A stretch of 64,000 nucleotides of DNA from Psococerastis gibbosa. Taxonomy: Eukaryota > Arthropoda > Insecta > Psocodea > Psocidae. Under the pieces are notes generated by a model. The model searched no databases and was not told the DNA's origin. It worked only from the letters and a program-made list of their open reading frames with translations. The position numbers were made by a program, and so were the translations under genes. Numbering within the stretch: position 1 is the first letter of the stretch; every line of letters begins with the position of its first letter. The stretch covers positions 3,844,001 to 3,908,000 of the forward strand of contig OZ020485.1 in assembly GCA_963971405.1 (NCBI GenBank), written 5' to 3'. Below, one piece after another: positions 16,794-59,372 of the stretch.

Positions 16794-16816
16794 TAGTGAC
16801 AGGACATACTTGCAGT

Positions 16817-34347: not shown

Positions 34348-35323
34348 CAGGGCTGCCGTTCGGAAAATTAAAATTATACGCAATGGAAGCGAAAAAGATA
34401 GGCAAAGATACGCAAGTTTAAAAAATAAAAAAAATAATGCATTATTTTTTTATTTATTGTTTTTTTTAATGTTTTCGTGCCCTAGTCGGTTATTTACTTA
34501 AAATTTTAATTTTTTACCTTCAAATTTCACACTTCCTTCTTGTTGGCAAAACTTTTTTCCCGCCAATTTTTGAAATCATCGAAATTTTCGCATGTAAACA
34601 TTTTAAACTTAAAAATTTAAATGCATGCATATGCCTAAGTTTAGCCAGTTAGTGGGATTTGATACTTTGTTCCCATTTCAATATTGGTTCCGGGCTGAGT
34701 AAAACATAGTTATTTCGGATGTGGTAACATGTCTAGAAGAAATATATAAGTATCCTAAAACCAGAAACTAGGACGCTCGGTCCACTGATTCTTCGGATTG
34801 GCTATACCGAAATTATAAGCGAAACATGGTATGATTAGGTCTAGTCACAGAGTTTTTAACATCGAGTGGCTGTAGTGTAGCCTGCACAAGATAAATACGC
34901 AATTTCGCTTGGTAAATAGTCCACAAAGGCTAAGTACAGAGATTGGACCGGGTCCAGGTATCCGTTCATCTATGCTGAAATGTGTAAGACTTCGAAATTT
35001 TTACGTTGGTACTTATCTCTGATAGTTGGCTTATGGTTAACGATCGCCCCGTAAGGGATATTATGGGTACCGCCGTCCCAGTTTATATATTTCTATGGTT
35101 TATATACCAACATATACCATCATATAACTCCCGCTAATTTTCAAATGCTAAAAAAATGGATTTTTTGTTATTGAATATTAAAGATTGCTTTCTCGCATTT
35201 TCTTTGTTCAAACTATATGAAATTATACGCAAATTATACGCATTTAACATTATACGCACAACGATACGCAAGCCTTCAAATTATACGCAAAATCGTATAA
35301 TTATACGGCAAACGGCAGCCCTG
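34348..35323. mobile_element. hAT-like non-autonomous DNA transposon with subterminal repeats
   Basis: Ends cagggctgccgtt (34348) and aacggcagccctg (to 35323) are perfect inverted repeats of the hAT type. Just inside them are many copies of attatacgca or its variants (near 34370, 34405, and at least five between 35221 and 35306), which resemble hAT transposase subterminal binding sites. The 976-bp interior has no transposase. The 8-bp flanks (ccctaatc and cccagggg) do not match, so the target duplication has decayed or the ends are shifted. Confidence 0.75.
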
Positions 35324-38289: not shown

Positions 38290-40195
38290 CCTGAACTATA
38301 AGACTCCAAATCAACGGTGGTCCTGTTTTCACGCAAACATCGAAATCCTACAATTTGTGTGGATGGCCGATCCCTCAGCCTGCTATTTGACCGAAAATGC
38401 CTTCGAAAGCCACAAATTACCCAGATTCTGAGGACACGCGGCGTGAGGCTGAGCCTTTTGCGTGTATTTGCTGGCACCAGCTAGGGAGCACATCCTAAAT
38501 CAGTGATAATATTATACAAATCCAAAATATTGTCGGTAATAGAGTAGGCTATAGTGCGGTTTTGCTGCAAAAGTTAGCGAAGATGCATTATATTAAACTC
38601 GAACGGGTGCAATGGCGAGCAATTCGAATAGCCCTTGGAGCTATGAGAACTACTTCAACACAACTAACGTCTTAGAGGTAATGGCAGGTGCCAGTCCGTT
38701 ATGCATACGATTGAAATTGGTGACCATGAGGTAGCTGCTAAAAAGTTTGGCTACTGGGGCACAAGTTTGGAAATACTAGCTGCGTTTGGGCCCACAATCT
38801 ACTGGTTAATCTGTTGGGAGAAGCCGTGCAGTCCAGGGGAAAACTGGAGCACCTGCCTCAAAGGAGTTTTGAAATTGGTCGCTTATGTTCTCCCTTAGTT
38901 TGTCTGTATCTGCTAAATAGGTACCTTTCGGGGCATGCCTAAGGAGTTACTAAGCCAACTTTCAGGGAGTTTTGTGCCTCAGAGGGATTGGATTTTGTAA
39001 CACAGATTTACAGAGATGGATCTAGTTCACCACATGGGGTTGGGGCTGCTTCTTAAATTAAGGGTGGGCAACATAGGTCATAGATCAGTGGCATTGGAAA
39101 CAACCGCATCGCCCTTCACAGCAGAGCTTGCTGCCATCCGAATGGCAGGCGAGTTCATCAAATCAACTCGGGCAGGAGGAGATAGATTCGCAATCTTCTT
39201 TGACTCAGCGCAGCGTCTGCTCTTTTTTTTGCGGTTTTTGCCCAGTCCCAAAATCACCACATAGTGGTTAATGACAATAGAGGAGATTTAGCCGGTGATG
39301 GGTACAAAGTCAGATTGTACTGGGTGCCTGCTCATGTAATGTAATAATAATCATTCGTGTATTTTTTAACATTTATACGGATTTTGTATCAAGGGCGGAT
39401 CCAGCGAAAAATTTAGGGGGAGTTCAAAAATTGTATGTAAGTTTGAAAGGTAAATTTTTTGTTGAAAATTTGAGTTTTATTCAATTAACAACTTTTTTAA
39501 TACTACCATATGAATTTACTAATTTAGGGGGTCATGACCCTCCTGACCCCCCCCCCCCCCCTGTGGATCCGCCATTGCATTGCAATATTGCAGGTATCAC
39601 GGGCAATGTATAGAAGCCGATGGATGGGCAAAACTATACAATAATTCAGGTAGCCCGACCTACGACTATATTGATGTCAGGGACTGCCATAGGCCGATGC
39701 CGTCATGTGTGGCAGCAAATTGGGACTGCAATGAGAGAGGGCGGTACTGTCACTCAATCCTCCCCAGGGTGGCATGGTGGCATACAGTTGTCACGAGGCG
39801 TGGTAACGCCTGATATCTCGACACACCAGAACGAAGTGTCACCTGCAGTGAATGTCAATTGTGGACTCTACCTCTTGCGATCAGTGTGGCCAGCCGGAAA
39901 CGGTGGAACATATTTTATGGGATTACCAACGCGTGGATCTAGTCGCGAGTGATAGACTCACAGTTGCCATTCGTCAAGGTTTGGGGGACTCGGTCACGGA
40001 AGTAAGCGATGGCTCTTCAATTAGGGGTATCATCGGTCTTGCAATGCTTCACAAGGGAGTTGGACGATGTGTCACGATTTAGAAGTGACTAAGTTTGTGC
40101 TCCACCTCGGCCTGCTACATCAGGTTGCTGCAAGCCCATATTTCCAACATGGAGCACTGTGTTCCCACAAGCTAAGCTAGTGTCGTCTATGCTAT
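38290..40195 (+). pseudogene. 5'-truncated RNase H-bearing LINE remnant
   Basis: Begins in the RT palm/thumb: STVVLFSRKH (about 38310), LSLLRVFAGTS and AHPKSVI (about 38450-38510), VQWRAIRIALGAMRTT (about 38610) and LEVMAGASPL (about 38672). RNase H follows: TAELAAIRMAGEFIKS (about 39118), AIFFDSAQ (about 39191) and RLYWVPAHV / GITGNVEADGWAKL, which are split by an insert at 39339-39590. The end carries a CDQCGQPETVEHILWDY knuckle (about 39876). Several frameshifts break it. The 3' end (gtgtcgtctatgctata) resembles that of the LINE at 1.6-4.2 kb and passes into a TAGGA repeat, which is probably the element's own tail. Confidence 0.75.
39339..39590. mobile_element. Small non-autonomous element inside the LINE RNase H domain
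   Basis: It separates the RNase H motif halves PAHV and GITGNVEAD. The core 39393-39573 has inverted ends gggcggatcc and ggatccgcc and an internal C run, the same layout as 14420-14604. Flanking bases (39339-39392) may belong to an older insertion step. Confidence 0.65.
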
Positions 40196-40231
40196 AGGAT
40201 AGGATAGGATAGGATAGGTAAGGATAGTTAT
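40195..40231 (+). repeat. TAGGA pentanucleotide repeat (LINE tail)
   Basis: About seven units of ataggat-type pentamers right after the LINE 3' end, consistent with a LINE simple-repeat tail. Confidence 0.85.
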
Positions 40232-42605
40232 CAACTATAGGTATATATTAGACAGGTGAAAATCATACAAATAATGGAAAAATACAAAGGATCAGATATG
40301 CCTATGGGCGTAATACCTACCACCATCACCCTCATGAATTCGGAAAAAAAAAAAAAATGGAGGACCCGTCAGGAAGGATAGGACTCGGAGATTTGGTGTA
40401 GACATGGATTATCACTTTGGTCACTTCTTGGCTCGTGTGAAGGTATGTGAATTTTTGTGCTTGGTATACTACTGCGCTACTGCGTACATACTACTACATT
40501 TCGCATTCGCACATCGTCTGTTTTGGGTGAGAAAGCCTACTCCAGAGAACATAATGAAGAAAACTAGGTTGCTCATGGGGAGATGAGCTTCTATGTATCG
40601 GAATCTTATATTTCCCAGTTCAACCTCATTGCAAAATTGTCAATCTTAGTCAATTTTAATAGAACCTTTTTCAGTTGAGCCAATCCATTCTCAATGCAGC
40701 GGATTAGATGCACAAAATCGTTTCAATGTAGGGTTCACTGTCTATACCCCAGTAGACAGTGTGGAGTGGGTGAACTCGTTATAAATATAGAAAATTCTCC
40801 GCTCCCAGTTTTTTTCAGCGACAACTTTGTGGCTTGAACATTTTCTCAATGTCAATACAATAAAGCAACTTTTTTTCTAATATCTCAGGCAACAACTTAG
40901 CGCAAGAGCGTGGACCTTGAATTAGACGCTGTAAGGTCTATGTAGGTATACATCGGTATGAACGTAAAACTACGCAATTTAAACTCTTCACGCAATTTCA
41001 TCTGGGTACACTATTTCTGGTCTGAGTCTCAACGAGGCGTGGTGATTGAGGGTGGCATCATAGGCTATTGTACCAGATCATTGGCGTTTGATAGGTTAGG
41101 TTTATACAGACGATCGCTGTGGGGATGCTTGCAGTGCAGTTGAATGGACAATGGGCATCCCTTGACCACTGAGTGGGGTGTAGGTTGGGTTGTACGGGAG
41201 GTGATCGGTAGCTTGTCTACTAAAAGGACGATCGAAGCTTTGCCATGGAGTCAAGCTTTTGGAGTAGCGAGGCAGGTGATGAGGCAGATGGGAACATCTC
41301 GGCGCTCTGAATTTTCCAGAGAGGGCGATGGCACTAAATTGTCACATTTTAAGAACTACAAAGATCTACACCAACCAACGAACACATGGTAAAATTTGAC
41401 AGAAACAGTACATAGGTAATAAGGCCGATACTAAAAATTTAAGTGATGCTTATCGAGTTATTATCTTTATATATTTATAAATATATTCCTTAGTAGCAGG
41501 GGAGTACCAGCCGAAGAAGAAGATTAAAAATTCACTTTTTTCCTTTGACAATATTCATTGACAATTTTTCAAACAATACGATACTGTACATCGTAGCTAC
41601 TCAAGTTTTCACTTATCGAGTGATCTTGAAAAACATACTTTTATTTATTAATTCCTCATGATAAATTAATTATATTGATAATAAAGGCAAGCGTCACTTA
41701 AATTTTAAGTAGGTATCAGTCATTGTCTGATCGGGCCTACATGGTAGTTCACAAGCACATATCAGTTTTATTTCGGGGTAGGATTTTTTCCCAACAAGTG
41801 TTATTTTAGCCCAAAGCAAAATTCAACTATAGCTGTTGCCAAAATTACCATAATCAGGTATATGGTAACGGTAAGGTACCCTTCTGAAATTGGGGCCCCC
41901 TAGAAAGTTGAATAGGCGGATTGAACTAGCTACAGCCATTTTGTTGGACTAGGTTCAGAGTGTACAATACAGTTTATTAGTAATAAAAATTAAAAATATT
42001 TTGGCATTTCTACCAGTGAAAAACATTACTTTCTACCCAGCAAAAAATAGAAGCAAATAACGTTTAAGTCTACATTTTTAAATTTCGGGGTAGGAACGAT
42101 CCTTAACTCTGGGTACGTCCTTGGAAGTTTAAACATATGTTTGTTTCATTTATTAATTTGCTATACCTATGTGGCTATGAATCTGAATATGCTATGGTAA
42201 TTAGGTATGTGGAACTGGGTTTATTCTAAGAAGAGAGCATTTCAGTTCATATCGGTGATGTACAATTCGGGGTCGAAGATGAAAAGAAAGCTCAAGTCGA
42301 GCTAACTCATGGGGGCCTGGAACACTAAGAAAGGTGAACTATATGGAGATGACTTCTTAGTTTGGACAGTTGTGAGAAGGAAATACAGTATGCAGGCTTT
42401 ATATTATTATGAACAGGTGACTGGCACAAAGGGAGGGCTGTAAGGAAGAACAATAAATGAGGCCCTCTATTACATATATTTCTCATGAAAGATCTATCGT
42501 AGAGCGATAAACAAGACGTCATATAACCTAGAAAAAACAGTCGTCTATGCTTTGATTGATGTACATCATGTTGTCGTCGATTTTATAAAAATAATTCAAT
42601 GAGAA
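40232..42605. other. Long stretch without a recognisable gene
   Basis: AT-rich. Short frames only; no exon with domain or splice support. Confidence 0.4.
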
Positions 42606-43356
42606 CAGTGGCGTAGCCAGATTTTTTTTTTGGAGGGAGTCCAGTTTTCATGCAACATCAATACATAAAGTTTGCCCGTTTACGATAGGTTTTCGATTGG
42701 GGTGGTGTTTCATTTGGCGCCCCCCCCCACTATTTTGTTAAAATAGTAGAAAACTAGGAAAGCCGTCCTCATGGACGTTAGCATCTCCTACTTAGGGGCA
42801 TGATCTTAATTTCCCCACCCGAGGGGTTGGGGGCTGAAGGGGGGCCCGGGGTCCCCCCGGGAAAGGTTTGTGGAAAAATAGGCCTGAAATTGTGGAATTT
42901 AACACATTTTGATGCATATACGTCTTGTATTGCAATAGGTTAAACCTATTGTAATAATGTATAGGTTTTACAGCCGAAGAATAGTTTTGTAGATCTACTG
43001 AAAGAAAGGGGGGCCTGGGGGCCTTCCCCGGGGGAATTATTTTTGAAAAAGATGTAAAAATAGTCGAATTTACGCACATTGAATGCAGCTATGTTCATAT
43101 TTTTCATATGAAGAATATTACAGCTAACTAGGGGGGCCCGGGGGATACCGTGGGGAATGTTTTTGAAAGATAGGCCTGAAATAGTTTGTCGGCAAAAACA
43201 TTTTGATTTTTCAGACGGTAACATTAACAAAACTGGAAACAGGTGGACCGGGGTCTCCCCGGGGAATTTTTTTGAATAAATATCTGAAAAATTGTATGTT
43301 TTGCAAAAACAAAAATTCCGGACCCCACTGACCCCCCCCCCTTGCCTACGCCACTG
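42606..43356. mobile_element. Non-autonomous element with cagtggcgtag ends and internal GC-box repeats
   Basis: Ends cagtggcgtag (42606) and ctacgccactg (to 43356) are inverted repeats. The inside holds four degenerate direct repeats, each with a ccccgggg-type block followed by aatttttttgaaaaata and a cacattttgat-like motif (starting near 42838, 43009, 43131 and 43231). No transposase. The 8-bp flanks do not match. Confidence 0.65.
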
Positions 43357-44619
43357 TTAAGGGGGCTACAAGATATGGGTGTTTGATTGTTATGAGCGGC
43401 GCATCCGCAATCTTATCTAGGGCGGGCACAATCACTTTTTCTTACGTAAATCATAAATCTCGTAAATCGACTTTATAATGAAGTTTTGAAGATTGAAGAT
43501 TATAAATAAATTTTATTGAATTAAGCTCAAACTTCTTTATGGGCACCGGTATAGGCTGTACAGTAGATAGAAGAACTGGGTTATGAACCGGAAGGTCAAT
43601 GGAGGCTAGACGACATAATAGGAAACCCAACCGTATTGGTTACCGAGAGGGTAAAACGTGGTTGCCGGCCATGATGTCAGCCACGAAACCCTTTTGATAT
43701 CCACCATGGGAGTGTATGGGAGTACTCCAATAGCGTATTAGCGTCGAGTTTGTTGTTTCACAGTACCACTACACACTACAGGGGTTGATACACAGTATTC
43801 AGTAGTACGGAACTCTGAAACACCAGGCGAGCTACTTCACGAACATCCATTTACCTACTGATGATAGAAACGATAGGGGAAATATGCTGTACATATTCTT
43901 CTCAAAAGAGTTACAATATAGGGATTGGTTTGCAGCGAGTATTGCAGAGGCAGTCCCAGACCTCATAAAAGGGGGAGGCACTTGTCAGTGTCGTAACGAT
44001 AGGTTTTCGAAGGTGTAAATTGGTGCCTCTCCACCCACTTTCATAAAAGGAGTCAGGAGTCAGAAGGCTGAGTTATTGGGGTTTTACGCATTTTCAGAGC
44101 AATATTATATTATAGGTAATTAATGCAATTGAGCAGAGAGGGGGGGGGGGGTGGGCGAGGTTCTCCCCCGGGAGAAAAGTTGTGAAAACTAGGACTGAAA
44201 TAGTGGGGTATTACGCATTTTGAGGAACTTATGTGCCAGCATATTTAGTATATGCGAAATATCTCAATAGAACCCCATATAACACCACAGAATCTTGTTT
44301 TGAATTCAAACACTAAAAACTATTGAAACATGCCGATGTACTCAAGCTGACTTTAGGCGATCAGACCACTTCACTAACAAAAGCATTGTGTGTACAATTT
44401 AAGTTTGGAATCGAAACCAAATTCTCTTTTAGCCAAAGGGCTTGTCGTAAGCGGTAATGAAAATCTCACAAACATGGGAGACAATCTATATGAATCAGTG
44501 GGCAAAAATACGATATTTAAGCATTAATGATAATGTAGTGGGAAAGGCCTGGAAAAATATTTAGCGGACTTACATCCTTAAAAAATCTCCGACTATGTTC
44601 AGTTGCACTCTGTAGGCTT
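43357..44619. other. No gene recognised; one more GC-box repeat
   Basis: At about 44136-44240 lies another copy of the GC-box unit (gaggttctcccccgggag, then a tattacgcattttgagg motif) found inside the element at 42606-43356. Otherwise unassigned. Confidence 0.4.
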
Positions 44620-44800
44620 CTAAAATTGTATCTTAGAGGCTTCGCAGCAACTGAAACTGAGTTGCTACGAATCCTCAGAGACACAATTTTAGAAGACTAC
44701 ATAGCGTCACTGAATATGTCGACCGCAAATGTTGATAAAACGTTTGGAAGTCCACTTCCGGATCGACCAGGGTCCATTAGCGGGGAATTTACTGCTTTAT
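44620..44800 (+). mobile_element. Penelope-like 3' UTR fragment
   Basis: Matches the family 3' UTR from the GTTGCTACG block to about CCATTAGC. The hammerhead equivalent (44710-44745) is decayed: CUGAAUA and GAUAAAAC replace the core bases. Confidence 0.7.
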
Positions 44801-44877
44801 CATCGTACAATGGATATAAATTGCTAACAAAACCAAGCCATTGTAATAAAACGAGACTCGGAATGATTTTCTATGGC

Positions 44878-45138
44878 CTATACCATTGCATTGGCGGGCA
44901 CTTCTGCAATGCCACATTTCCACTCATTCAGCTGCTGTTTCATTGCAGCCAATTGAGAGCGTGACGGACTCGAAATTTTTTTAGGGGCGCATGTTTTTGG
45001 CCCATTCAAGACAACGTTGACAAAGTGAAGCATGTACAGACCACATTCATTGCCGTTCGTCTGCTGGGGAGCGGGACACATTTTAAAAGATATACTAGGG
45101 CCAATATTCTTTTGCAACAGGTTTTTGAAATTCTGGGC
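44878..45138 (-). pseudogene. C-terminal part of the THAP transposase-C48 protease gene, beyond the gypsy insertion
   Basis: Continues the frame of the gene at 55498-58677 once the gypsy element and one copy of the cgtt target duplication are discounted. It encodes 86 residues and then a TAG stop. It holds the second half of a Ulp1/SENP8-type protease: the Gln of the oxyanion hole and the catalytic Cys in PQQTNGNECGLYMLHFVN. The tail is Ser/Lys rich with a short helix (AAMKQQLNEWK). On its own the fragment has no start codon and no catalytic His or Asp, so it is inert while split. Confidence 0.9.
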
Positions 45139-45142
45139 CGTT

Positions 45143-47331
45143 TGTAAAATTCCTTCATATATGTCAAATGTGAAATTAAACTTTAATGTTCATTTCTGTT
45201 ACTCATACTCGTACATCTGCTATATTCTTATTAAATAAAACTGCTTGTGATGCTTATGCTTGCTTAACTTAGGAAAGTTAGATTCGGGAACTTAGGGAAA
45301 TGAAATAAACTACTTAGGGCTACTCTAGAAGGTAGCTGTTTTCTAACGGATGACCGGTCCTGATAAGACACTGAAGCCCGGAGCCTGATTAGCCTGGGAT
45401 TGGTGTTACGAAAATTAAAACGGGCTAGCTCAGACGACACCCAAGCTAATCCCACTCCGGCTTCAAACTACTCAACACAACTAGGGAAACGTGCAGCTAC
45501 CGAGGTCAAGCTCCCGATGAATCCGACAGAAACCCAGATCGCGGGGCGCTATACTCTAGAGCCGCATCCTTCCTCATGCGGAGACTCAACTCAGGGAGCG
45601 TTAAGGTCAGAAAGAAACCTGGACAAAATCTGCGACAACAATCTCTCTCTTCTAATGCAACAAAATATACAGTGCAATAATAATTTTTAAATTGAAAAAC
45701 AGCGCCAAACAGTAGCGGGTGCAGTAAGCTAAAACCACGTCTTAGACGGGGCAATAGAAACCAATATGGCCGAAATAGTCAACAAGATTACCGAGCCAGA
45801 GGAGCTCTTATTTTTATTTTAAAATTAACCGGAAAAACCCAGCCGGGAAAACTTTTCCGCTTTTTCCAAAAGCAACAAAACAAAAATAATGTGAGAGTGA
45901 CAAACGAAATTACTACGGTAAGTACAGTGAAAACAATACATTGACAACCTGGTGATCTAAGCACAGAGACGCTGCGTTTTTGCGCCAAAACAGAGACCTC
46001 TTTATTAAAATGTAATCAAAACACGAACCCGGGGCGCCAACCTACAATTTTGGAATGATTACTGCCAAACAAGGACCGGTAGACGTGCCCCTTTCCCGTA
46101 GGCAAGGATCGGGTCACACGCCTCAATTTTACGGTTCCAAAAGTGGCTGCAAACACCCAGCGTCCCTATTCTTAGACCACCATGTTGTAATTAGAACAAG
46201 AATGAACAGGCTCCCGAAGTTTGACAGCTCCAGGAGTGTCATCAGCTGATTATGACAAGACAGACAGCTCATCAAAATTACGTACGGACTAAATGATTTA
46301 GAAATGTAGGGGGTAGCAAAATTGCGCCCAGAACTTAGGAAAATTGACGAACTGGAAAATTATATAAAAGAAAAGAAGCTTACGGACCAGAGCTCACGGC
46401 AGGGTACTCGGCTTCCACTGGTAGGTGCAGGGCGCAGAGAGTGCATACTCCGCAGGGTGTAGTAGGCCCTAGGCAGGCCGTAGGTAGGTCGAAATATGCA
46501 TGGCTCACTCCATCTCGCCTATCCGAAAACCAGGCGGCTACCGGAGCCTAGTTGGTCAGGCTCCGGGCTGTGGCTCCCCAGCGACCGGCTTTAGGCCCAG
46601 ACAAGTTTTCCTACCCCATCATGGTGGCTGTTTTCAAGTGCTATGGAGGAAACAATTAATGATTATTTAGTGGTAGCTTGTCTTCCTTTCTTCCCCTGCA
46701 TATGGCCGAGCAGCTCCAATCTGACCTTCCTGTGACCTTGACGGTCTTTCCGACATCCGACGTGAAGATTAAGTAGCAAATTTTATATTTATTTTTATTT
46801 TGTGTTTTCCTCGAGCCACACCGTAATTACCTTAAATTATCTTAAATTCCACTTCCTCCTGATCAGACGTGGTTTGAGCCGGCAAGCATGCGTCATCGCG
46901 CATGGACGCATTTATCTAGGCTCCTACTTGTTTCGTGTATAATATTTATGCTTATTTTTCTTTTTCAGGGGTTTCTACCGGTTCTACGGCGGTACGTAAT
47001 TTCATAAATTAATAAAAACGGGGCTTACCACAAAAAATCAACCTCGACGCAACTCATCACCAAGAAAGTCAGAGAATGAGCAAGTTTGAGACTTGCCAGC
47101 TCACTTCGTCCTTATCCGGTCATATTAGCCACTTTTAGGCACCTTTTAACTCCCAAGTTGACTTCATGTGGTTACCCTCACCCCCCAAAAAACCCAATAT
47201 ATTATTTTGACTCGCCCCCAATTGTGTTTAATCGTGGTTAATGCTCGATTTATTCCCCTTTCGACTCATTTCCGTTTCGAGTTTCAAAGTATCCCCGCCA
47301 CTCACTCCGCGCTGTTTTTTAAATCATTACA
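45143..47331 (-). repeat. Ty3/gypsy 3' LTR (2,189 bp)
   Basis: Starts tgtaaaat and ends cattaca on the plus strand (TG...CA). Much longer than typical gypsy LTRs. It has short open frames of 63-96 codons on both strands with no recognised domain, and a plus-strand TATA-like tatataaaag at about 46361. Confidence 0.95.
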
Positions 47332-47345
47332 TAGCCCCCCCCTAT
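47332..47345 (-). promoter_or_regulatory. Polypurine tract of the gypsy element
   Basis: Minus-strand reading ATAGGGGGGGGCTA directly before the 3' LTR; the expected primer for plus-strand DNA synthesis. Confidence 0.75.
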
Positions 47346-47424
47346 ACAAAAAAAAAATGCGAAACCCGCAACAAAACCCAAGACAGCATTTTTTTTTTTG
47401 TTAAATAACCGAACCCACAGAAAA

Positions 47425-50400
47425 TTACAAGAAAGCAGGCTTTAAATTGTTAATCTCGTGACGACCAGCGTTAACCCCCTTTAATGTCTCCAGGATTACT
47501 TGATTGGTTCCAGCCAGCTGAGCTATCTTATATGGACCCTTATATTTCGGTTGGAGCGACCCTACAATTTGTTGGATCTTTGATGACTGTGGGAAGGCCT
47601 TGACCCAGACCAGCATCCCAGGTACGTATGGAGACTTCTTCCTCCTGAGGTTGTAGACGCGAGCTTGCGTCTCTTTGTGCTTGAGAACCACCTGAACAGC
47701 TTTGTTGTAAATTTTTTCTAGGTCCTCCTGTTTGTCCTGGAAATAGACGTGAGGCTCAATATCCTGCCCGTTTCCGTCTTGCAATGGCGAAGATAATGGG
47801 AAAAGAGGACGCAGTTCGTGGCCGTACAGTAGCTTCGCGGGGCTGAAACCTGTCGTGGAGTGCGGGACGGATCGTAAGGCCCTCTCAATTAGGGGTAAAT
47901 ACTTGTCCCATTCATTGTGTTTGCCCTTCATATAAATGGCCAACGCCGTTTTTATTGGTTTGTTCAGAACTTCGACGGCTCCGTTCTCCCATGGGGCGAA
48001 TCTAGGGGTGACGTGATGTGCGATCGAATGCTGTTGGCACCACTGCTGGAAATCTGCGGATGTGAAGCACGAACCACCATCTGAAATTAGGATTTCTGGT
48101 GCTGAATGCGCCGGTAATACGTCACGCTCCAGGATTTGGATGCACGCTGCTGACGTTGCTGCTTTGATGGGACGAACGTATGCAAATTTCGTAAACTGGT
48201 CCACCAATACGAAGATGTACTTATGGCGATAAGGGTGGGTGGTGGGATATGGACCCAATAAGTCAACATTGACTGTGGCAAACGGTTTGGGCGTGGGTGG
48301 CTTGAGCTTCATCTCGCCCACAGGACCCTGCAAGTTCGGTTTGAAACGAGCGCATTGCTGGCACAGCTTGCAATACCGCTTGCAGTCCAACAAAACACCC
48401 GGCCAATACCATGCCTCCAGAATTCTGTGCGCGGTCTTTTTGGCTCCCATGTGGCCGGCCTCATCATGACAAGCTTTTAAAATACGCGCGCGCTCGTGGC
48501 CAGGTACCACCCTCCTAATTACTTCCCTTTTGGTGACCGGATCGGTAATCTGCTTAAACAGCTTACCATTCGCGATCTGAAAACTGGGGTAGCAATCCGG
48601 GTGGGCAGTAACCTTGCGTACGAGCTCCTCGTACCATGAGTCAACATGCGCCTTTGTTTCATCGATTTCAAGGCTTGCCATAATGGGGTCGTCGTCCTCC
48701 GCGTCCATCTCGTAAGGGTTGCGAGACAGCAGGTCACATAACCCGTTCTCCACCCCTGGCGTGAACTGAACGTGGAACATGAAGCTACTCAGCCTCACTA
48801 CCCAGCGTTGCAGTAAAGAATTCCCCTCTCCCTTGTTCAACTTTGAACCGCCACTTCCTCCCTTGGTGACAGCTAGAAGCCACGGAATGGGGCTGTGATC
48901 GGTGATCAGTTTATTGCGTTGATCCGGTGGACTTCCCAAAAGGTAGATCCGGAATTTTTCGAGTCCAAAAATGGCCGCTAAGCACTCGCGCATCACCGCA
49001 CTATACCTCTGCTCCGATGGTTTGAGAGGCCTCGATGCGTAGCTAATGACCACAATGCTGTTGTTTTGGACTTGAGTACACACCGCAGAAATTCCTACGT
49101 TGGAAGCATCCGTCCGAATTTGAAAACCTAACTTAAAATCTGGCGTGCCCAACACTGGCCTCGAACACAATACATCTTTGATTTGTTGGAAAGCCGCAAC
49201 CCGTTCATCCGTCCACTGTAGAGAGGTGACTCCCTTCTTCAACAAATCGTTGATTGGCCGAGCCACTTCCCCGAGCTTTGGGATAAACCTCCGGAAAAAA
49301 TTAATGCAACCCATAAATTGGCGAACTTGTTTTTGAGTACGAGGCTGGACTATACTGCGGATGGCTTCAATTTTATCCTCGTCCGGCGAGATGGTGTTAT
49401 TCTCCAGCTTCACCCCAAGAAATTTGACCGACTGCTGGAAGTACCGGCATTTTTTCTTGTTGATAATGAGATTATTTTCTCGCAGGGCTGCAAACACGTC
49501 CCGTAACAGCTCCGCGTGTTCCTCTACGGTCTTTGTAGCTACCAAGCAGTCATCAAAATAAATGTAAAGACCGCGGTGCTTAAACTTGCCTAATATCGAA
49601 TGTATGATTTCGCTAAACTTATCCGGTAGCACCGCAAGACCCAGGGGGCAGTATTTCCACTTATATTGAACTCCGGCGACGGTGATTGCTGTATAGTCCT
49701 GGGACTCTGGACTGATGGGGACCGAATAGTAAGCATCCCTCAAATCTATTACAGACAACACGAACGCGTCCTGGATGCTTTCAATTATCTGGTTAATATC
49801 CGGAGAGATGCTTGACGTCCTCCGTAGGCGCGCGTTGAGCTGACGATAATCTATGAGGAGCCTCTGCTTGTTCCGGGCATAGTTAATGTGGAGAAAGGCT
49901 GGTGAATTCCACTCTGATTCGCCCCGCTCCAAAATGCCCCTTGACTCTAGGTCCTTGCAGATTTGAGCCGCTCTTTTTTCGTTTTCCGGTGGGAGGCGAA
50001 ATTGGCGGACGCGGACTGGTGGCAGACTCAAGTCCGGGTACAGCTTCAGTTGTCCAGCTGATGTCTTCCCCGTGCTCGACTTGAACGCTTCGTGCCAATA
50101 TTGAATCAAGTCCACGGCCCTTGAGACCTGCTCTGGCGTCATGGGGTACGTAAAACTACCCGCCTCAATACGCACTTCGTCGTCGCCTGTTGCCAGCTGC
50201 AAATCCGCCTCACAAATCTCGACACCTGCCAACGTGAGCTTCGGGTATGTAACCAACCTAATTTCCTCTGGTAGGGTCTGTGGTGGTAGAGGTTGTAGCA
50301 CCAACAATCGACCTGCCACGTCGATAGAGGCCTTTAATTTTAATAATAAATCAATGCCTATAAGGCACGGCTGCCGTAGGCCCTTGAGGAGGTAAAAGCG

Positions 50401-50646
50401 ATGGTTTACCATAAGGAACCCACTTGAACCCGCAGCCAGGCGGTTCCCACAAGCTCTGCATGAGAAGAAGAATCTGCCAATTTGACACGGCCAGACGTAG
50501 GCGTCACCCGAAAACCACTTGTCACTAAAATGTCCCAATAAGGGGCTGCTATTAAGGAAGAGTTGGCGCCCGTGTCGACCAACGTCGGAAAAAACGTTTC
50601 GCCTATTTTTATATGTAAAAAAGGTCGCTCCACAGGCCCTACACAT
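47425..50646 (-). pseudogene. Ty3/gypsy pol (RT, RNase H, integrase), frame broken at its 5' side
   Basis: The open frame is 1,073 codons, but the first roughly 80 residues are out of frame; the true protease lies in the neighbouring frame. In order: reverse transcriptase with LLIDYRQLNARL, VIDLRDAYYSVPIS and catalytic YFDD (about residue 362), RNase H starting FQIRTDASNVGISAV, and a spacer with the integrase zinc finger (HDEAGHMGAKKTAHR ... CKLCQQC, about 715-765). The integrase catalytic core follows, with Asp near 795, Asp in SDGGSCF near 854 and Glu near 890, then a C-terminal domain. It replicates the element through an RNA intermediate and inserts it. The break sits near 50410-50440. 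Confidence 0.9.
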
Positions 50647-50723
50647 GCCAGCTCGATATGCTATGGCGCCGGAAAGGTATAGTCCTTGATATACTCAGTA
50701 AACTCGGGATGTAGGGGGTCCAT
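50406..50723 (-). pseudogene. Ty3/gypsy pol 5' part with protease, containing an in-frame TAG
   Basis: From the ATG at 50723, 39 bp after the gag stop, the frame reads MDPLHPEFTEYIKDYTFPAP and meets TAG at 50663-50661. It then continues open with the aspartic protease FFPTLVDTGANSSLIAAPYW (DTG catalytic triad). It must change frame near 50410-50440 to join the RT frame. So pol of this copy carries one stop and one frameshift, unless these are sequence errors or recoding sites. Confidence 0.8.
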
Positions 50724-50761
50724 TTCAAGGGGCCTGCGCAGTGGTCCGGACCCGTCAGGAC

Positions 50762-52633
50762 TCACTGCTTGGCCTGGTCGTTTTTTATTTCCATTAAGGC
50801 CTCAACCTTCAGCGTAAGGGCTGCTAAGGCGCGTTGTAAGGCCAACATGTCCGCCTTTGGATCGGTGTTGTCGCTGGATCCGCGTTGAGCGGACTTCCAC
50901 CGTTTCGCCCTCTGACTTTGCGGGCACTCATGATGTTCATCGACACCCTTTTTCCCACAATAACGGCAAAAAACCCGGCGGGCGGCCCCACAATCTTTAA
51001 AAAAATGGTGTGGTGAATCACAATTAAAGCACAGATTCACTGCTGCTGCCTCTAATTTGCCGTCCGTATCGGCCACACTGACATACTGTAGTTTCGGCTG
51101 TCCCATATTCATTGTTGCTTCTATTTTTGCACAGGCTGCCTCGAGTTGCCGGAAACTGGAAACGTCCGCAAAAATCAGCTTCTCCCTGTACAGCGGCAAC
51201 AGGTTGTTACGCACAAGGTTTACCATCGTCGCCTCGTCAAATTGGACGGTCACTTTCCTGAATCTACTCCTAATATTCGCCAAAAATTCGACCGATCGCT
51301 GCCCCGGTGTCATTTTCTCCGACAGAATTTCTTGCAGTCGCGCTGCGTCCCCCCGGACGACCGTAAAAGCCTCCAGGAACTCCCCGCGGGCTTGACTCCA
51401 ACTCGTCAGATCCGGTAGGTGCACTTCGAACCATGTCTTGGCCGTCCCAGAGAGGAGATCTACCAAACAGGGATAGATCAACTCCATGGGAAGGCCAAAC
51501 AAATGTGCCTGTCTCTCAAAATCTACAAGAAAATCCTCCGGGTCTCCCCTCCCAGAGAAAGCGATTTCTCGGGACCTACAAACGCCCAGAAACTTCACTA
51601 GGGTCCGCCTGTAGTCCCCTAAGTCCGCCGAATTGCCCGACGGGTCGGACGCGCTGTGGCGACCGGACGAGGGCCCCTGTTGTTGCCAGGGCGGCGGTTG
51701 CTGCGGCCAAGGCGGCATTTGTGGTGGCGGATGGTGGGAACTCTGATGCTGCTGTGGTGCATGCCAATCTTGCGGCAGTTGTTGGTGCGGCGGTTGCCTA
51801 ACCGTCGCCCGAGGCGGTTGTTGAGTAGTCGGTTGCTGAGGTGGGACATTCCACTGTGGTGGTGTCTGTTGGGACACTGTCGCCCGAGACGGCTGTTGGG
51901 GCACTGTCGCCCGAGGCGGCTGTTGGGCAGTCTGCTGCCGCAGTGGAGCATTCCACTCAGGTGGCATCGGCTGTGAAGGCTGTTGAGATGCAACCGTAGG
52001 GGGGTCGAAGGGTTGGGGTGGGGGTAAAGGCTGGGTGGGGGCCAATCCCCGTAATGACCAAGGTGAGCGGCCTTGGCTGGCAGCTTGCTCCGTTGTCTCT
52101 TGCATAGACAGCGAAGTATGGCCTTGCGCATAAGAAGTATGCACCCTCTGTTCCCTAACCCTTTTATGTACACTAAACAACGGCGAACGAAGGGTATCAC
52201 TCCCCGGCTGCAAAGCCGCAAACTGCCGCTCACACTGTTTAAGCGCAGCCAACAGGGTGTTCAACCCTTCCTGCTCTACCTCAGGAACGGCAGAAAAGGT
52301 CGTTCGCAGCACTGCGGTGTTTGCAAACTCCGGCTGTAAATCCGCCCCAGGCACCCCTGCATAATCCAGCAGAGTCTGAGGTGGCTCTACTGTCGGTGCT
52401 GAAAGAGAAACGATGTGGTCGGCCGGATCTGTCAGTGGAAGGTTTTCAATCCCTGAGATGTGCAAGAGCACGTCGGGGTTGTCCCGGACCGCATCCCACA
52501 CTTCTCTCCGCAGTGCCGTGAACGGCCCATTCATATCAAAGGCAAAATCAGGGCGCAATTGTTGCAACTCTGTTGCTAACTCAAGCAACGCGTCATAATT
52601 GATCTGTTGTAGAAAAGACCGAAACGTCTTCAT
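50762..52633 (-). CDS. Ty3/gypsy gag
   Basis: 623 codons starting MKTFRSFLQQ. The N-terminal third is unassigned, the middle (about 190-330) is very rich in Pro and Gln, and a capsid-like segment follows (SGRGDPEDFLVDFERQAHLF, about 360-380, and a helical region to about 500). Two zinc motifs close it: CFNCDSPHHFFKDC (about 534-547) and a CRYCGKKGVDEHHEC knuckle (about 556-570). The product packages element RNA in cytoplasmic particles. Gag ends with TGA at 50762-50764; pol begins downstream in another frame. Confidence 0.85.
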   Translation of the reverse strand: MKTFRSFLQQINYDALLELATELQQLRPDFAFDMNGPFTALRREVWDAVRDNPDVLLHISGIENLPLTDPADHIVSLSAPTVEPPQTLLDYAGVPGADLQPEFANTAVLRTTFSAVPEVEQEGLNTLLAALKQCERQFAALQPGSDTLRSPLFSVHKRVREQRVHTSYAQGHTSLSMQETTEQAASQGRSPWSLRGLAPTQPLPPPQPFDPPTVASQQPSQPMPPEWNAPLRQQTAQQPPRATVPQQPSRATVSQQTPPQWNVPPQQPTTQQPPRATVRQPPHQQLPQDWHAPQQHQSSHHPPPQMPPWPQQPPPWQQQGPSSGRHSASDPSGNSADLGDYRRTLVKFLGVCRSREIAFSGRGDPEDFLVDFERQAHLFGLPMELIYPCLVDLLSGTAKTWFEVHLPDLTSWSQARGEFLEAFTVVRGDAARLQEILSEKMTPGQRSVEFLANIRSRFRKVTVQFDEATMVNLVRNNLLPLYREKLIFADVSSFRQLEAACAKIEATMNMGQPKLQYVSVADTDGKLEAAAVNLCFNCDSPHHFFKDCGAARRVFCRYCGKKGVDEHHECPQSQRAKRWKSAQRGSSDNTDPKADMLALQRALAALTLKVEALMEIKNDQAKQ

Positions 52634-53308
52634 ATTGATACTGATAATAAAATCTCACTAAGGTAACAAATAACTTATTGTAATTAACACTAAATTAATT
52701 TCCTGTTTCCAGGTATATCCCAAAGATAAAAATATTCAAGAACTTGGACGCACTCAAATTACATACAATATTCCGGGCTTAATCACCAAACCGGGAAGCC
52801 AAAATTCTCTATCTCAAGAGGAGCCAAAACAACCAGTCGCAAGAAGAACGCGACTAACAATCATTGTGTAATACTTAATGCTAGAACATTATAATAATAG
52901 CAGTATGTATTATAAATTATACAACCACCTACCTACATGTTTATTACTTAAAAACCTGTAAATTACAGCCTGTGATAGAGCGTCGACATACAGAAACTAT
53001 GTCTACTCCCACCACCGGCGGTAACCGTATGGGGAAAAAAAAGAAAAAAAATGTTCAGGATAAAATCACAGCAGTAAGGAGCCATGTCGGTGACAGAACT
53101 CCACCGATGAGCACCCAATACAACAGCGAATCATCCGGGAAGGAACAGCGATGGAAGGACAAAACCCCCTTCCCGCGACACCTTTCCGGATAATTTGAAA
53201 GCCTGATGATGAACCTGTATACGAAACGTGGCTACCAAGTGGAAAAAACATTAGAGAGGAAAGTTGTCACAGAATAGAGTCCAGGCACCTAAACGCGTAG
53301 GCGCCACT
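52634..53308 (-). other. Gypsy 5' leader
   Basis: About 675 bp between the primer site and the gag start, AT-rich with several short frames. No splice sites or RNA structure were assigned. Confidence 0.6.
53289..53306 (-). promoter_or_regulatory. Primer binding site of the gypsy element
   Basis: Minus-strand reading TGGCGCCTACGCG starts two bases after the 5' LTR. TGG pairs with the CCA end of a tRNA; which tRNA was not determined. Confidence 0.75.
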
Positions 53309-55497
53309 TGTAAAATTCCTTCATATATGTCAAATGTGAAATTAAACTTTAATGTTCATTTCTGTTACTCATACTCGTACATCTGCTATATTCTTATTAA
53401 ATAAAACTGCTTGTGATGCTTATGCTTGCTTAACTTAGGAAAGTTAGATTCGGGAACTTAGGGAAATGAAATAAACTACTTAGGGCTACTCTAGAAGGTA
53501 GCTGTTTTCTAACGGATGACCGGTCCTGATAAGACACTGAAGCCCGGAGCCTGATTAGCCTGGGATTGGTGTTACGAAAATTAAAACGGGCTAGCTCAGA
53601 CGACACCCAAGCTAATCCCACTCCGGCTTCAAACTACTCAACACAACTAGGGAAACGTGCAGCTACCGAGGTCAAGCTCCCGATGAATCCGACAGAAACC
53701 CAGATCGCGGGGCGCTATACTCTAGAGCCGCATCCTTCCTCATGCGGAGACTCAACTCAGGGAGCGTTAAGGTCAGAAAGAAACCTGGACAAAATCTGCG
53801 ACAACAATCTCTCTCTTCTAATGCAACAAAATATACAGTGCAATAATAATTTTTAAATTGAAAAACAGCGCCAAACAGTAGCGGGTGCAGTAAGCTAAAA
53901 CCACGTCTTAGACGGGGCAATAGAAACCAATATGGCCGAAATAGTCAACAAGATTACCGAGCCAGAGGAGCTCTTATTTTTATTTTAAAATTAACCGGAA
54001 AAACCCAGCCGGGAAAACTTTTCCGCTTTTTCCAAAAGCAACAAAACAAAAATAATGTGAGAGTGACAAACGAAATTACTACGGTAAGTACAGTGAAAAC
54101 AATACATTGACAACCTGGTGATCTAAGCACAGAGACGCTGCGTTTTTGCGCCAAAACAGAGACCTCTTTATTAAAATGTAATCAAAACACGAACCCGGGG
54201 CGCCAACCTACAATTTTGGAATGATTACTGCCAAACAAGGACCGGTAGACGTGCCCCTTTCCCGTAGGCAAGGATCGGGTCACACGCCTCAATTTTACGG
54301 TTCCAAAAGTGGCTGCAAACACCCAGCGTCCCTATTCTTAGACCACCATGTTGTAATTAGAACAAGAATGAACAGGCTCCCGAAGTTTGACAGCTCCAGG
54401 AGTGTCATCAGCTGATTATGACAAGACAGACAGCTCATCAAAATTACGTACGGACTAAATGATTTAGAAATGTAGGGGGTAGCAAAATTGCGCCCAGAAC
54501 TTAGGAAAATTGACGAACTGGAAAATTATATAAAAGAAAAGAAGCTTACGGACCAGAGCTCACGGCAGGGTACTCGGCTTCCACTGGTAGGTGCAGGGCG
54601 CAGAGAGTGCATACTCCGCAGGGTGTAGTAGGCCCTAGGCAGGCCGTAGGTAGGTCGAAATATGCATGGCTCACTCCATCTCGCCTATCCGAAAACCAGG
54701 CGGCTACCGGAGCCTAGTTGGTCAGGCTCCGGGCTGTGGCTCCCCAGCGACCGGCTTTAGGCCCAGACAAGTTTTCCTACCCCATCATGGTGGCTGTTTT
54801 CAAGTGCTATGGAGGAAACAATTAATGATTATTTAGTGGTAGCTTGTCTTCCTTTCTTCCCCTGCATATGGCCGAGCAGCTCCAATCTGACCTTCCTGTG
54901 ACCTTGACGGTCTTTCCGACATCCGACGTGAAGATTAAGTAGCAAATTTTATATTTATTTTTATTTTGTGTTTTCCTCGAGCCACACCGTAATTACCTTA
55001 AATTATCTTAAATTCCACTTCCTCCTGATCAGACGTGGTTTGAGCCGGCAAGCATGCGTCATCGCGCATGGACGCATTTATCTAGGCTCCTACTTGTTTC
55101 GTGTATAATATTTATGCTTATTTTTCTTTTTCAGGGGTTTCTACCGGTTCTACGGCGGTACGTAATTTCATAAATTAATAAAAACGGGGCTTACCACAAA
55201 AAATCAACCTCGACGCAACTCATCACCAAGAAAGTCAGAGAATGAGCAAGTTTGAGACTTGCCAGCTCACTTCGTCCTTATCCGGTCATATTAGCCACTT
55301 TTAGGCACCTTTTAACTCCCAAGTTGACTTCATGTGGTTACCCTCACCCCCCAAAAAACCCAATATATTATTTTGACTCGCCCCCAATTGTGTTTAATCG
55401 TGGTTAATGCTCGATTTATTCCCCTTTCGACTCATTTCCGTTTCGAGTTTCAAAGTATCCCCGCCACTCACTCCGCGCTGTTTTTTAAATCATTACA
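53309..55497 (-). repeat. Ty3/gypsy 5' LTR (2,189 bp)
   Basis: Same length and, as far as compared, same sequence as 45143-47331. Its outer end supplies the last nine codons and a TGA stop for the interrupted transposase-protease frame. Confidence 0.95.
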
Positions 55498-58400
55498 CGT
55501 TTGAAAGGCCACAGTTTCATTGGTTTTTTGTAGAGAGTCGATGTGATAAAAATCGCAACGCTTTTTGTAATACACTAACAAACTCCAGTGTGTGCCTCTT
55601 TCGCTTCCTTTAGCGTCATTTAATGGAAATAAAATTTTGTCAACAGTGCCAGCCAGTGCTGTAGTTAAATGAGTTTTAGCCATTTCCGGATTATTCAAAA
55701 GTAAATTACCAATTAGTGGATCAATCAACAAGAAGGATTTTGCATTTTTATTCGTTAGACATAAATATTCTAGATATCTATTGACGTCACTATCATCCAC
55801 CCATTGATCTAGATCACGATGCATGTTGGTGGAAGCATGACTATACCTTATGGGGCAAGGCACAACATTTTTTTTAACGAAAGTAGCCTGGCTTGCACTT
55901 TTCTTACGTCGCCATTTTTCTTCTCGTACCTTGGTACGGAACCTTTTGGCCTTAGCTTCGAAGAAAATTCGGCAAAATATGCGGCAAAAAAAGTGAGTTA
56001 CAACATTGCCGTGATTTGGACAAATATCCTCAGCTAAATCAATGGAGTTTAAAATTTCGTTCTCTACATCTTTACCTAATGTGTCTCTAGCTAAATTAAT
56101 ATTTTCTAAGTTGTCAGGGACCATTTCTTTGAAAACCTTGACAGCAATGTCCGTTATATCCATGAAGATTTTTGCTGGGTAAGAGAGAGATTTCGTATTT
56201 ATACGGAACTCTTTCAGTTCTATAAACTCCTGGCCAGGGAGAGCCTCCTCAGAAAACAAAGAGTCCGAACAGCCCGGGCAACCCTTGATTTCCTTCAACT
56301 TGGCAATTTCCTTGACGATGTAGCCGGTTACGTAAGGAAAAGCACCTTGTTCTGTAAATTTAACGGCATCAATCAATTTTAATCCGGAAACTATTTCATT
56401 TTCTTCTGTACTCAGGGCGGACATGTCTACAGCCGGCTGGGTATTCAACGTAGCACTAGGAATTTTCGGGTCTAGCCTTATAACAGTTTTTCCTACTTTT
56501 CCTGGAAACATGGACTGCACATCAATTAATAAATCGCTATTATCTTCTGCGCAATTGGAATTGGCGGATTTTACATTTTTAAATTGAGCAATGACATAAG
56601 ACTTAAGAGAACCAGTGAAATGGAACATATCAGGATTTCGATTGTGACTCCTTATTATTGAAAATAGGTTTTCAAGTGGATCTTGGTTGAAGTACCTGGT
56701 GCAGACAAAATCCATACCTTTTTCAGTAACTAGGTAGTGACAAATCTCTTTAAATGACCGAAGGGTTCTCAGCCATCCCTTGGTGAACCTTCCTTGCATT
56801 GCCCCCCCTCGGCTATTAAATCCTTTGAGCGATTGGAAAACAGTCATTGCTTTGAGCCATATTGAATTGTGATAACTTTCTTTGCTATATGCTACTCGGA
56901 ATGGTCTTCCCTTCAGATTTGTGACTGATTTGGCATTAACGCTGTCAAACAGCAAATTCATAAAATAGATGAACTTTGCTGTATCAGCCGCATCTGGGGA
57001 TATATCAAATTTGTTCGACTTATAAAGCATGCCACTGTAAACAGAATTACTAAATATCTGAGCGGCATGTCTTACCTTCATTCGCGGGATTTTGTCAGGA
57101 ATAATATGTTTATCAGTCAATTTTGGGGCTAGACGACACAAACCCTGATCGGCGGCGTAAAAATCAGTTACATCATTCCACGAAGCAATTTTCTCACGAC
57201 CGAGGTAAAAATCGTATTGTAATAAGTTATTTCTAGTTGATTTCAGCAAATGGGGAGGGTCAAAAATAATATGAACTTTTCGATTATCCACACAAAAATA
57301 ACCCAGATCATTAATCCCGCGAACAGTATTAAGTAGGAGCTGATTGGCTGCAGAAAGATTTGTAGCCCCTTGGTCACAGACGGTTGCTACAACCGTAAAA
57401 CCGGCATCATATGCTTTTCGGATAATTTCGGGAATAATTTCTATTAACATATTTGCACTTATCATTGCACTGGTAAAATAATAAGCCACTGGCATTTTCC
57501 AATTTGCCCTAATCCCCCTCAGCATGAACACTAAAGCATGGTCAGCCAGTTTACCCTGACGCCCTGTGGCTTCAGGACCGAAATCAACGAAACCGTCATA
57601 ACGACCCAATTTGTTATTATATGTAATTGTTGGGGATATAGCGATTTCATCATATACGAGCGTACATAGGCAATCTTCCGGTACCATACCCTCACTTCGC
57701 TTCTTTAGAACCTCGAAAATGAAATTGTTAATTCCCACCTCAAAGGGAATTTTTTTTATTAACCTAGATAGTGTCGACTGGCTCGGCAATGGCATGCTTT
57801 GAGCCATCATTTTATAACTACACTTACTCTTCTTCAAGAGGGTTGCAGCACTGGCTTTTTCCTCAATTGACCATCGCCGGCTCGTTTTTTTCTTCCTTTT
57901 ATTTTGGAACTCTCCCTTTAAAAAAAGCTTCATAAGTGGCGAAGCGTCTTCGGCCAACTTAATATGAGCTCCGCTGATAAGGGCTTTATTTTCCGCTCGC
58001 AGTTTTCTGACTTCTGCCTGGGACTTCTTGAGGGCTACCTGCAAGCTCTTCGCCAACTTATAAAGGTCAGATCGCGAAGGTGTCATAGAGCTTATGGGAT
58101 GACCAAAAAGAAGAGACCTCTTTGACAAAGGAGTTCTTCTTGCGCTAGGTCTTCTTGCGCTACGTGTGCATCTTGGGGTCTCTATCACTATTGGTGTTGA
58201 GTTATGTAGGGGTGAGGCGTAGGGACTACTACTACAATCGAAATGTTTAGAAAAATATGTGTGGTCCTCTGTAGGCGTATGTGCAATAAGGTCATCACTA
58301 TTTGAATCTAACTGTGGCAACTCAGATTTAGGCCTATTACTTTCCATGACGCTGGATAGATCGGAACAATGAGTCATAACTGAATCCGGTTCTAGGCCAA

Positions 58401-58677
58401 TCTCAACAAAACTGGACACCTCACAATTTGAGGGTATAAAAAATGTTGGTAAAGAATGTTTACGCAGCCTCCTTTCACCATGTTTACCAATTATAAATGA
58501 CTCATTTGCAAAATGCTTTGAGCAGATTTTAAATTGTCCCCCCATGTTGACATCAGTACAATTAAAATCCCACAGGTTGCGACTACAATCATGCATTTTT
58601 ATACCTTCCGTTTTACTTGAATTAAAACAGCCCACAACCGAGCAATATCGGACTCTTCTTTTGCTAGTTTTCGGCAT
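55468..58677 (-). pseudogene. P-type THAP transposase fused to a SENP8-like C48 protease (N-terminal part, split by gypsy)
   Basis: 1,069 codons, of which the last nine (55494-55468) come from the LTR. THAP zinc finger at residues 11-85 (CSVVGC, CSKHF, then LRKHSLPTFF in place of AVPTIF). A Ser/Thr-rich linker holds a coiled-coil segment (205-235). A P-element/THAP9-type catalytic core follows: Asp in VYDEIAIS (343), Asp in TVCDQGATNL (435), the FDPPHLLKSTRNNLL block (472-486) and Glu in FNQDPLENLFSIIR (669). A zinc-like C-terminal part (780-930) carries CPGC and CPNH. The C-terminus begins a Ulp1/SENP8-type protease: catalytic His in ERGTHWSLLVYY (1030) and Asp in YHIDSLQ (1047). The remaining 86 codons are at 44878-45138. 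Known families: P-type transposases cut and paste DNA; C48 proteases cleave ubiquitin-like tags such as SUMO or NEDD8. The fusion is an inference from one uninterrupted frame. The gene is intronless; no terminal repeats were found. Confidence 0.88.
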
Positions 58678-59372
58678 TTTTCTACTAAAACTAAAATATA
58701 ATAGTGCCCAGTTGAAAATGTAAACAAAACAATGTCAGTAATGGCTGGTAGGCTGGATGGTGTGCGTCCTTCAGTCCTTGATTTTGGACTATCTTTTTGA
58801 AAATATGCTTCAAATTGAGATTTTAGTGATAGTTTCAGAATTTGTAAAAAAATCATTACAATTTTTAAAATACATTTTATTCCCATTAATATTTAATTTG
58901 ACATTTAAATATTTACAAAAGAATTTAACTTGAGCTCTGTTGTTCAAGGAAAGTGGACGGAGAAAAAATTTCCGCTGCGCGGCGTGGCGCTGCTATCGCG
59001 AACTGAATCCCTATCCCGGTGACGAGTCTAGTTATCTGTTGTCTATGGCCCTGCCCTAATCTCAGGCCAGGCCAGGCCGGCCTTATTTTAGACCACAGAC
59101 AAAAGATAAATACAAATTTATTTATTTTAGTTTTAAATGTTTATTTATTGAATAAACATTACATTTTTAATATAATATCACTTAATTATATCATAATGAT
59201 ACGATAAAACTACACGTAACATTTTTGTTCACCATCTCAATAAATAATAAATTTTGTGTAGGTTTCATTGGCGCATAACGTGGGGAGAGACTAGTTTTGT
59301 GTCAGCCTTCCAGTAATGCTTTTATTATTAATTGAATAATTAATTAGTATTAGGCGGCTAATCCATCTGTTA
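58678..59372. other. Upstream flank of the transposase, no other gene
   Basis: Contains the GC-rich block agtggacggag ... gcgcggcg (58952-58995), similar to one at 35391-35440, which may mark an end of the transposon family. A short ggccaggccaggccgg run sits near 59073. Confidence 0.4.

Follow-up and report, generated by a model that had tools for sequence, protein, structure and literature searches.

Does the transposase gene in a 64,000-nt stretch of the insect Psococerastis gibbosa (GenBank assembly GCA_963971405.1, contig OZ020485.1, positions 3,844,001 to 3,908,000; in the following, "the window") really continue into a protease, and what could a transposon do with such a fusion? An earlier note, made from the letters of the window, had described a single frame that carries a THAP DNA-binding domain, a P-element/THAP9-type catalytic core and, without stop or intron, a SENP8-like protease domain of the C48/Ulp1 family. 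Given the copies discussed below, we are practically certain that the fused gene is real and selected. We read the surrounding element, E1, as a P-superfamily-type DNA transposon whose one gene combines THAP, a P/THAP9-type DDE (Asp-Asp-Glu) transposase and a C-terminal SENP8-like C48 domain; the whole explanation, including the action proposed below for the protease, is favoured with considerably more reserve. The coordinates of the features are collected in Table 1.

The uninterrupted copies lie elsewhere in the genome. When the assembly (409 Mb, 68 contigs) was searched for C48, 15 matches were obtained, and two of these are located within 1,165-codon frames on contig 15. In both of these copies (L015 and L016), the fusion forms an uninterrupted frame of 1,146 residues from ATG to stop, and their proteins show a single difference, i.e., Ile or Lys at residue 841. 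THAP, TNP and C48 are found together in the intact protein (Pfam), where C48 reaches 37.6 bits (cut-off 20.7). We also compared the surroundings of the three E1 copies: they have a unit of 13,363-13,368 bp in common (99.86-99.97% identity over long matches), the first 3.8 kb of which are the gene, and share beyond it just short dispersed repeats of at most 376 bp. Each copy has its own perfect 8-bp duplication, namely CTACTATG, GTTGCGAC and, in the window, GGCAGGGC. Such target-site duplications were observed for 3/3 E1 copies, for 1/1 complete element of a second subfamily (E2, see below) and for deletion derivatives at the three loci that were read. Duplications of 8 bp are typical of P elements (PMC7776569, PMC10983969) and are likewise described for the P elements of Anopheles (PMC1562414).

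For the window copy, the claim of an uninterrupted frame had to be rejected. A Gypsy long terminal repeat (LTR) retrotransposon lies inside the protease domain, with the His/Asp half on one side and the Gln/Cys half on the other, such that this copy is broken. The minus-strand open reading frame (ORF) starts with the ATG at 58677, crosses into the Gypsy LTR at 55497 and meets a stop nine codons on (55468-55470). That is, the last stretch of its 1,069 codons is LTR sequence. THAP, TNP and the His/Asp half of C48 are thus indeed joined in one frame, while the Gln/Cys block is found past the 10,355-bp insertion. The true start and stop of the gene are at 58677 and 44878, and positions 44878-45138 match positions 1060-1147 of protein P0040 at 99%. 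Since the two LTRs (53309-55497 and 45143-47331) show 0 differences over 2,189 bp, the knockout of this copy is recent.

With regard to the catalytic core, the two Asp and one Glu named in the earlier note are confirmed as D343, D435 and E669, the columns of which are invariant across an alignment of 39 sequences (P0040 among them). Together with the TNP-type RNase-H domain and its GTP-binding insertion, the protein holds what defines the core of the P/THAP9 superfamily, and this core is nearest to the Drosophila P transposase. Both parts of the THAP C2CH motif (C-X4-C and C-X2-H) are found as well.

The fusion also recurs beyond E1. Other copies in this genome had been proposed as a check, and beside the two intact E1 copies it is the second subfamily, E2, that has the fusion. 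Locus L011 (contig 20) is a complete E2 element of 6,523 bp with the 8-bp duplication CTCTGAGC, whose pieces match THAP, TNP and C48 of E1 at 35-63% protein identity. One 438-codon frame comprises the P-element C-terminal domain plus C48; elsewhere the frame is broken by frame changes and a TAG. A second, damaged E2 copy (L014) is 93-97% identical to L011 in long matches; the deletion derivative L030 is likewise E2-like. Another deletion derivative, L029, represents a third, degraded lineage that keeps the fusion architecture in part: its C48 is 57% identical to that of E1 and 53% to that of E2, and the catalytic Asp is lost.

To quantify constraint, we considered the proportions of synonymous (pS) and nonsynonymous (pN) differences between E1 and E2. 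Within the protease, pS is 0.79-0.80, i.e., saturated, and pN is 0.32 (L011) or 0.29 (L014). Values of pN elsewhere are 0.32-0.37 for the P C-terminal part and 0.23-0.25 for the TNP core, such that the constraint seen between the subfamilies is equally strong for the protease and for the tail of the transposase. Because synonymous sites are saturated while pN is low, the comparison indicates that selection has retained the protease since the subfamilies parted. E1 and both E2 copies retain all catalytic positions in the alignment (His, Asp, both Gln, Cys).

Do P copies exist whose intact frame ends before the protease? Among the loci read, none was found within the fusion clade. Such frames do occur outside this clade, in the two more distantly related P families L028 and L031 of this genome (29-31% identical), which have no C48 and end about where the linker to C48 begins in E1. 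In a tree of 42 rows (residues 207-450), all of them P transposases and none from another superfamily, E1 and E2 group together (100/97) beside L028 and L031 (98/93). This placement next to C48-less families fits one gain of the protease. A search of the genome with the full protein, which scored the best 40 of 327 candidates, gave at least 46 matches. None of 38 P homologues from databases has a C48 domain; 14 are at least 850 residues long, three at least 1,000 and some are marked partial, such that the C-terminus may be missing from many of these sequences. Database searches with C-terminal sequence gave only P0039 (C48, no P domain listed) for the broken copy and no match at E up to 1 for an intact copy; this search requires shared 5-residue words and is no proof that the fusion is absent elsewhere. 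Scanning IMG/VR with the C48 alignment resulted in 26 pattern matches, 0 of which were confirmed.

Two side observations concern these relatives. In L031:518-4362 (G000:C14:9451200-9455900), the C48-less P frame is followed by a separate 201-codon frame resembling GDSL/SGNH hydrolases (1.6e-5, below the cut-off). Furthermore, a noncoding stretch of 44 bp is 95% identical between the window (36836-36890) and L011:6574-6617; other noncoding parts of E1 and E2 hardly align.

The protease domain shows the C48 fold together with the His-Asp-Gln-Cys set required of the C48/Ulp1 family (clan CE). Its likeness to SENP8, as first noted, holds for the sequence, where SENP8/NEDP1 is the best match; by fold, SENP8 ties with NopD, the structures of which are complexes with SUMO and with ubiquitin. 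We consider it quite probable that the protease is catalytically active.

Both the family and its internally deleted relatives have spread recently. Searching with the left end of E1, where the best 40 of 230 candidates were scored (the counts of both genome searches are thus lower bounds), we found at least 41 matches, which comprise 35 rows of equal score (97%), the three full copies and three further matches. Three of the 35 equal-scoring loci were read. Each holds an internally deleted derivative of ~1.3 kb, in which E1 positions 1-435 are joined to 12520-13365, and the derivatives are 98.5-99.7% alike with perfect 8-bp duplications. Copies and derivatives together appear to mark recent activity of a P-type transposase family. 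One of the loci is a tandem array: L033:58-3968 shows three head-to-tail derivatives spaced only by the 8-bp GCTACCAG and, ahead of them, the right end of another copy.

Near their ends, both subfamilies show subterminal direct repeats of the same orientation. The repeat of E1 is 13 bp long and that of E2, which differs from it, 22 bp; both are located at comparable distances from the element ends. A repeat of the respective length was matched in 0/1000 shuffles for E1 as well as E2. These repeats are candidates for binding sites of the THAP domain.

As the main role of the protease, we tentatively put forward, by analogy, a local removal of tags that counters silencing or repair signalling. 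Here, the THAP domain would bring the protein to the subterminal sites of the element, the RNase-H core would cut and then rejoin the element ends, and the tethered protease would strip tags of the ubiquitin-like type (SUMO, NEDD8 or ubiquitin) either from the transposase or from proteins located at the element and target site. In this way, local chromatin or the transposition complex may stay permissive, e.g., by a reversal of SUMO-dependent silencing, which we judge the most likely outcome. Since PIWI-interacting RNA (piRNA)-guided silencing in Drosophila involves a SUMO ligase (PMC7272611), SUMO is a plausible target.

It is somewhat unlikely that the protease instead acts on the transposase itself, where it would strip NEDD8, SUMO or ubiquitin from the subunits or cleave the linker after end pairing and thereby tune assembly and turnover. 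In favour, C48 follows in cis after a linker of poor prediction quality (residues 930-962, low predicted local distance difference test (pLDDT) values), and its constraint would be satisfied by action at any point of the life cycle; on the other hand, the protease is present in none of the 38 homologous P transposases found. More doubtful is a repair aid, i.e., editing of SUMO/ubiquitin signalling at excision or insertion breaks as Bao and colleagues proposed for Ginger1, the transposases of which bear a similar C-terminal Ulp1 domain (PMC2836005), since P elements without protease leave 8-bp duplications too. That the domain was captured and is merely tolerated, no longer being relevant, is very improbable: degraded copies and deletion derivatives do lose parts of the protease, yet it is still open between subfamilies with saturated synonymous sites, with the catalytic residues kept. 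Finally, separate protease and transposase genes in one frame by accident, as the catalytic halves 10 kb apart in the window might suggest, retain a negligible probability because the fusion is uninterrupted in two other copies, recurs in divergent E2 elements bounded by 8-bp duplications and includes a constrained protease.

Several observations weigh against reading E1 as a P-type transposon with a silencing-countering, SENP8-like protease. The THAP domain (PF05485) passes its Pfam cut-off of 23.9 only marginally with 24.1-24.2 bits. L032, the only E1-related copy among those read that shows no C48, is decayed, and its match breaks off at residue 882, still within the P part. The structure model of C48 (from an 8-row alignment) is of modest confidence, with 10-residue means of 61-87 for the larger part of the domain; for C48 within a model of the full-length protein, the values are lower still (~32-66). 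The structural tie between SENP8 (NEDD8) and NopD (complexes with SUMO and with ubiquitin) leaves all three modifiers as candidate substrates, and the anti-silencing role is argued by analogy. The two parts of the 1.3-kb derivatives are 92-96% identical to E1, which suggests a slightly different element as their source; in principle, their mobilisation could also be due to a related P transposase that has no protease. Terminal inverted repeats, which the earlier note had proposed to look for in recurring fusion copies, were not found within the outer 120 bp of E1 or E2, the common ends being just CA...TG. The longest exact inverted match within this range is 8 bp for E1 (equalled in 183/1000 shuffles) and 6 bp for E2 (915/1000), and gapped end alignments are at chance level (912 and 1938 of 2000 as good for E1 and E2, respectively). 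P elements usually have terminal inverted repeats of 13-31 bp, a feature that is taken as not phylogenetically defining. Lacking them, E1 can be claimed to have a P-type transposase and atypical ends, not to be a typical P element. The scenario in full, namely that a P lineage gained a SENP8-like protease which would locally remove SUMO/NEDD8 at its own copies and so disarm SUMO-dependent silencing, while it swapped terminal inverted for subterminal direct repeats, we hold to be unlikely.

Where did the protease come from? In a tree of eight C48 rows, the P domains join the C48 of L012, a locus resembling long interspersed nuclear elements (LINE; 95/99), and the SENP8-like gene of the host, L019 (SENP8 match 1.6e-37; 29% identical to the P C48 in the alignment), falls outside this group. 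Direct capture of the host SENP8 was thus rejected as the simplest origin. The grouping points to an exchange between mobile elements; direction is not fixed by this tree, and its P rows are weakly resolved among themselves (64/66).

Other C48 loci of the genome are worth recording. L012:2186-8038 (G000:C21:240000-249900) encodes a viral-type superfamily 1 (SF1) helicase (PF01443, 5e-32) and a SENP8-like C48 in one 1,130-codon frame, with endonuclease/reverse-transcriptase frames downstream. L009 and L010 are located on different contigs and have an identical 618-codon frame (0/1,854 bases differ) with a different type of C48. In L013, a C48 of different type adjoins a reverse transcriptase/RNase H/zf-RVT frame.

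Table 1. Features of E1 and of the inserted Gypsy element in the window.
Feature	Position	Strand	Remarks
Target-site duplication, far side	35318..35325	-	GGCAGGGC, 8 bp
Whole P-type element E1	35326..59047	-	13,363 bp without Gypsy and its 4-bp duplication; edges from similarity to two other copies and 8-bp duplications
E1 ends		-	start CATAGACAACAG, finish GACAGCCCCCTG
E1 remainder downstream of gene	35326..44877	-	~9.5 kb, travels within the unit
Right subterminal direct repeat	35392..35404	-	TCTCCGTCCACTT, same orientation as left
C48 protease, second half	44878..45138	-	QQ1085-1086, Cys1092 (QQTNGNECG), through the gene's stop codon
Gypsy LTR retrotransposon	45143..55497	-	10,355 bp, within protease domain; target duplication AACG (4 bp)
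Gypsy pol	47425-50646	-	
Gypsy gag-like ORF	50762-52633	-	Pfam: nothing above cut-off
Element-encoded portion of broken frame	55498..58677	-	residues 1-1060
C48 protease, first half	55498..55818	-	~residues 954-1060, His1030, Asp1047; PF02902 partial, 0.021, below its cut-off; alignment to other C48 domains
TNP RNase-H C-terminal piece	56617..56691	-	residues 663-687, E669; PF21789, 4.7e-4, below cut-off
TNP GTP-binding insertion	56920..57252	-	residues 476-586; PF21788, 1.2e-14
TNP RNase-H N-terminal domain	57337..57741	-	residues 313-447, D343, D435; PF21787, 1.2e-35
THAP zinc finger	58438..58644	-	residues 12-80, Cys12, Cys17, Cys52, His55; PF05485
Left subterminal direct repeat	58951..58963	-	TCTCCGTCCACTT, element positions 85-97
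Target-site duplication, transposase side	59048..59055	-	GGCAGGGC, 8 bp

No domain was found in the part of E1 downstream of the gene, where five ORFs of 103-141 codons were scanned with one sub-threshold match at 0.062. A second protein in this part was rejected, since the five longer ORFs are without an above-threshold domain. No Rfam family reaches its gathering score anywhere within the window. Outside E1, the window holds a 1,402-codon frame (25838-30043, minus strand), part 719-1247 of which matches the cap methyltransferase CMTR1 (5e-104) and which is a host gene or a retrocopy, as well as a BEL/Pao-type retrotransposon frame (16766-21724, plus strand; PF05380, 3e-45). Nested inverted repeats, which may represent a small fold-back element, are observed ~300 bp away from the P element (59362-59614), with arms of 60 bp (93% complementary) nested in arms of 37 bp (86% complementary).

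Structures, assays and genetics are available for P elements, which belong to the most thoroughly studied transposons. A recently mobile P transposase with a ubiquitin-like protease would offer a direct route to testing why Mutator, Ginger1, Crypton and NeSL elements gained C48. Intact copies and numerous recent deleted derivatives of the E1 family are present elsewhere in the same genome, and mutating one Cys in one fused protein would allow transposition and de-tagging to be told apart. Should the protease act against SUMO-dependent silencing, transposons would have built-in counter-defences against piRNA or heterochromatin pathways, here as an element-encoded anti-silencing enzyme within the transposase that is delivered by its own DNA-binding domain. 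The missing terminal inverted repeats, along with direct repeats similarly placed in two subfamilies, also bear on how P transposases pair element ends.

Finally, we compared E1 with known systems. The earlier note knew of no P architecture of this kind. Indeed, no report of C48 in a P element was found in the open-access literature searched (top entries of the longer result lists), Repbase being outside its scope; however, the fusion is less isolated than was thought, because animal Ginger1 transposases with C-terminal Ulp1/C48 are already known. Compared to Drosophila P and zebrafish Pdre2 (THAP9-type), E1 adds the C-terminal C48 and forms a 13.4-kb unit, their 13-31-bp terminal inverted repeats are absent from E1 and its subterminal repeats are direct instead of inverted. 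Mutator-like elements that bear Ulp1 use a Mutator-type transposase, unlike E1. They share with E1 a C48 domain on a cut-and-paste transposon, as cited in PMC2836005. Similar in layout are the Ginger1 DNA transposons of animals, which also join a DDE transposase to a C-terminal C48/Ulp1 domain (PMC2836005); their transposase is of the Gypsy-integrase type with CCGG/CCGT-type duplications, whereas that of E1 is P-type with varied 8-bp duplications. Crypton F and S elements have a C48 peptidase too (in CryptonS on an additional protein), but their enzyme is a tyrosine recombinase (PMC3212892). An Ulp1-like protease is likewise found in NeSL and Utopia-1_TSP, which in contrast to E1 are non-LTR retrotransposons with the protease at the N-terminus (PMC4640811). 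Among cellular proteases, SENP8/NEDP1/DEN1 is nearest to the E1 domain in sequence, and in fold it shares this position with NopD; SENP8 is a free cellular enzyme, whereas in E1 the protease is part of the transposase.

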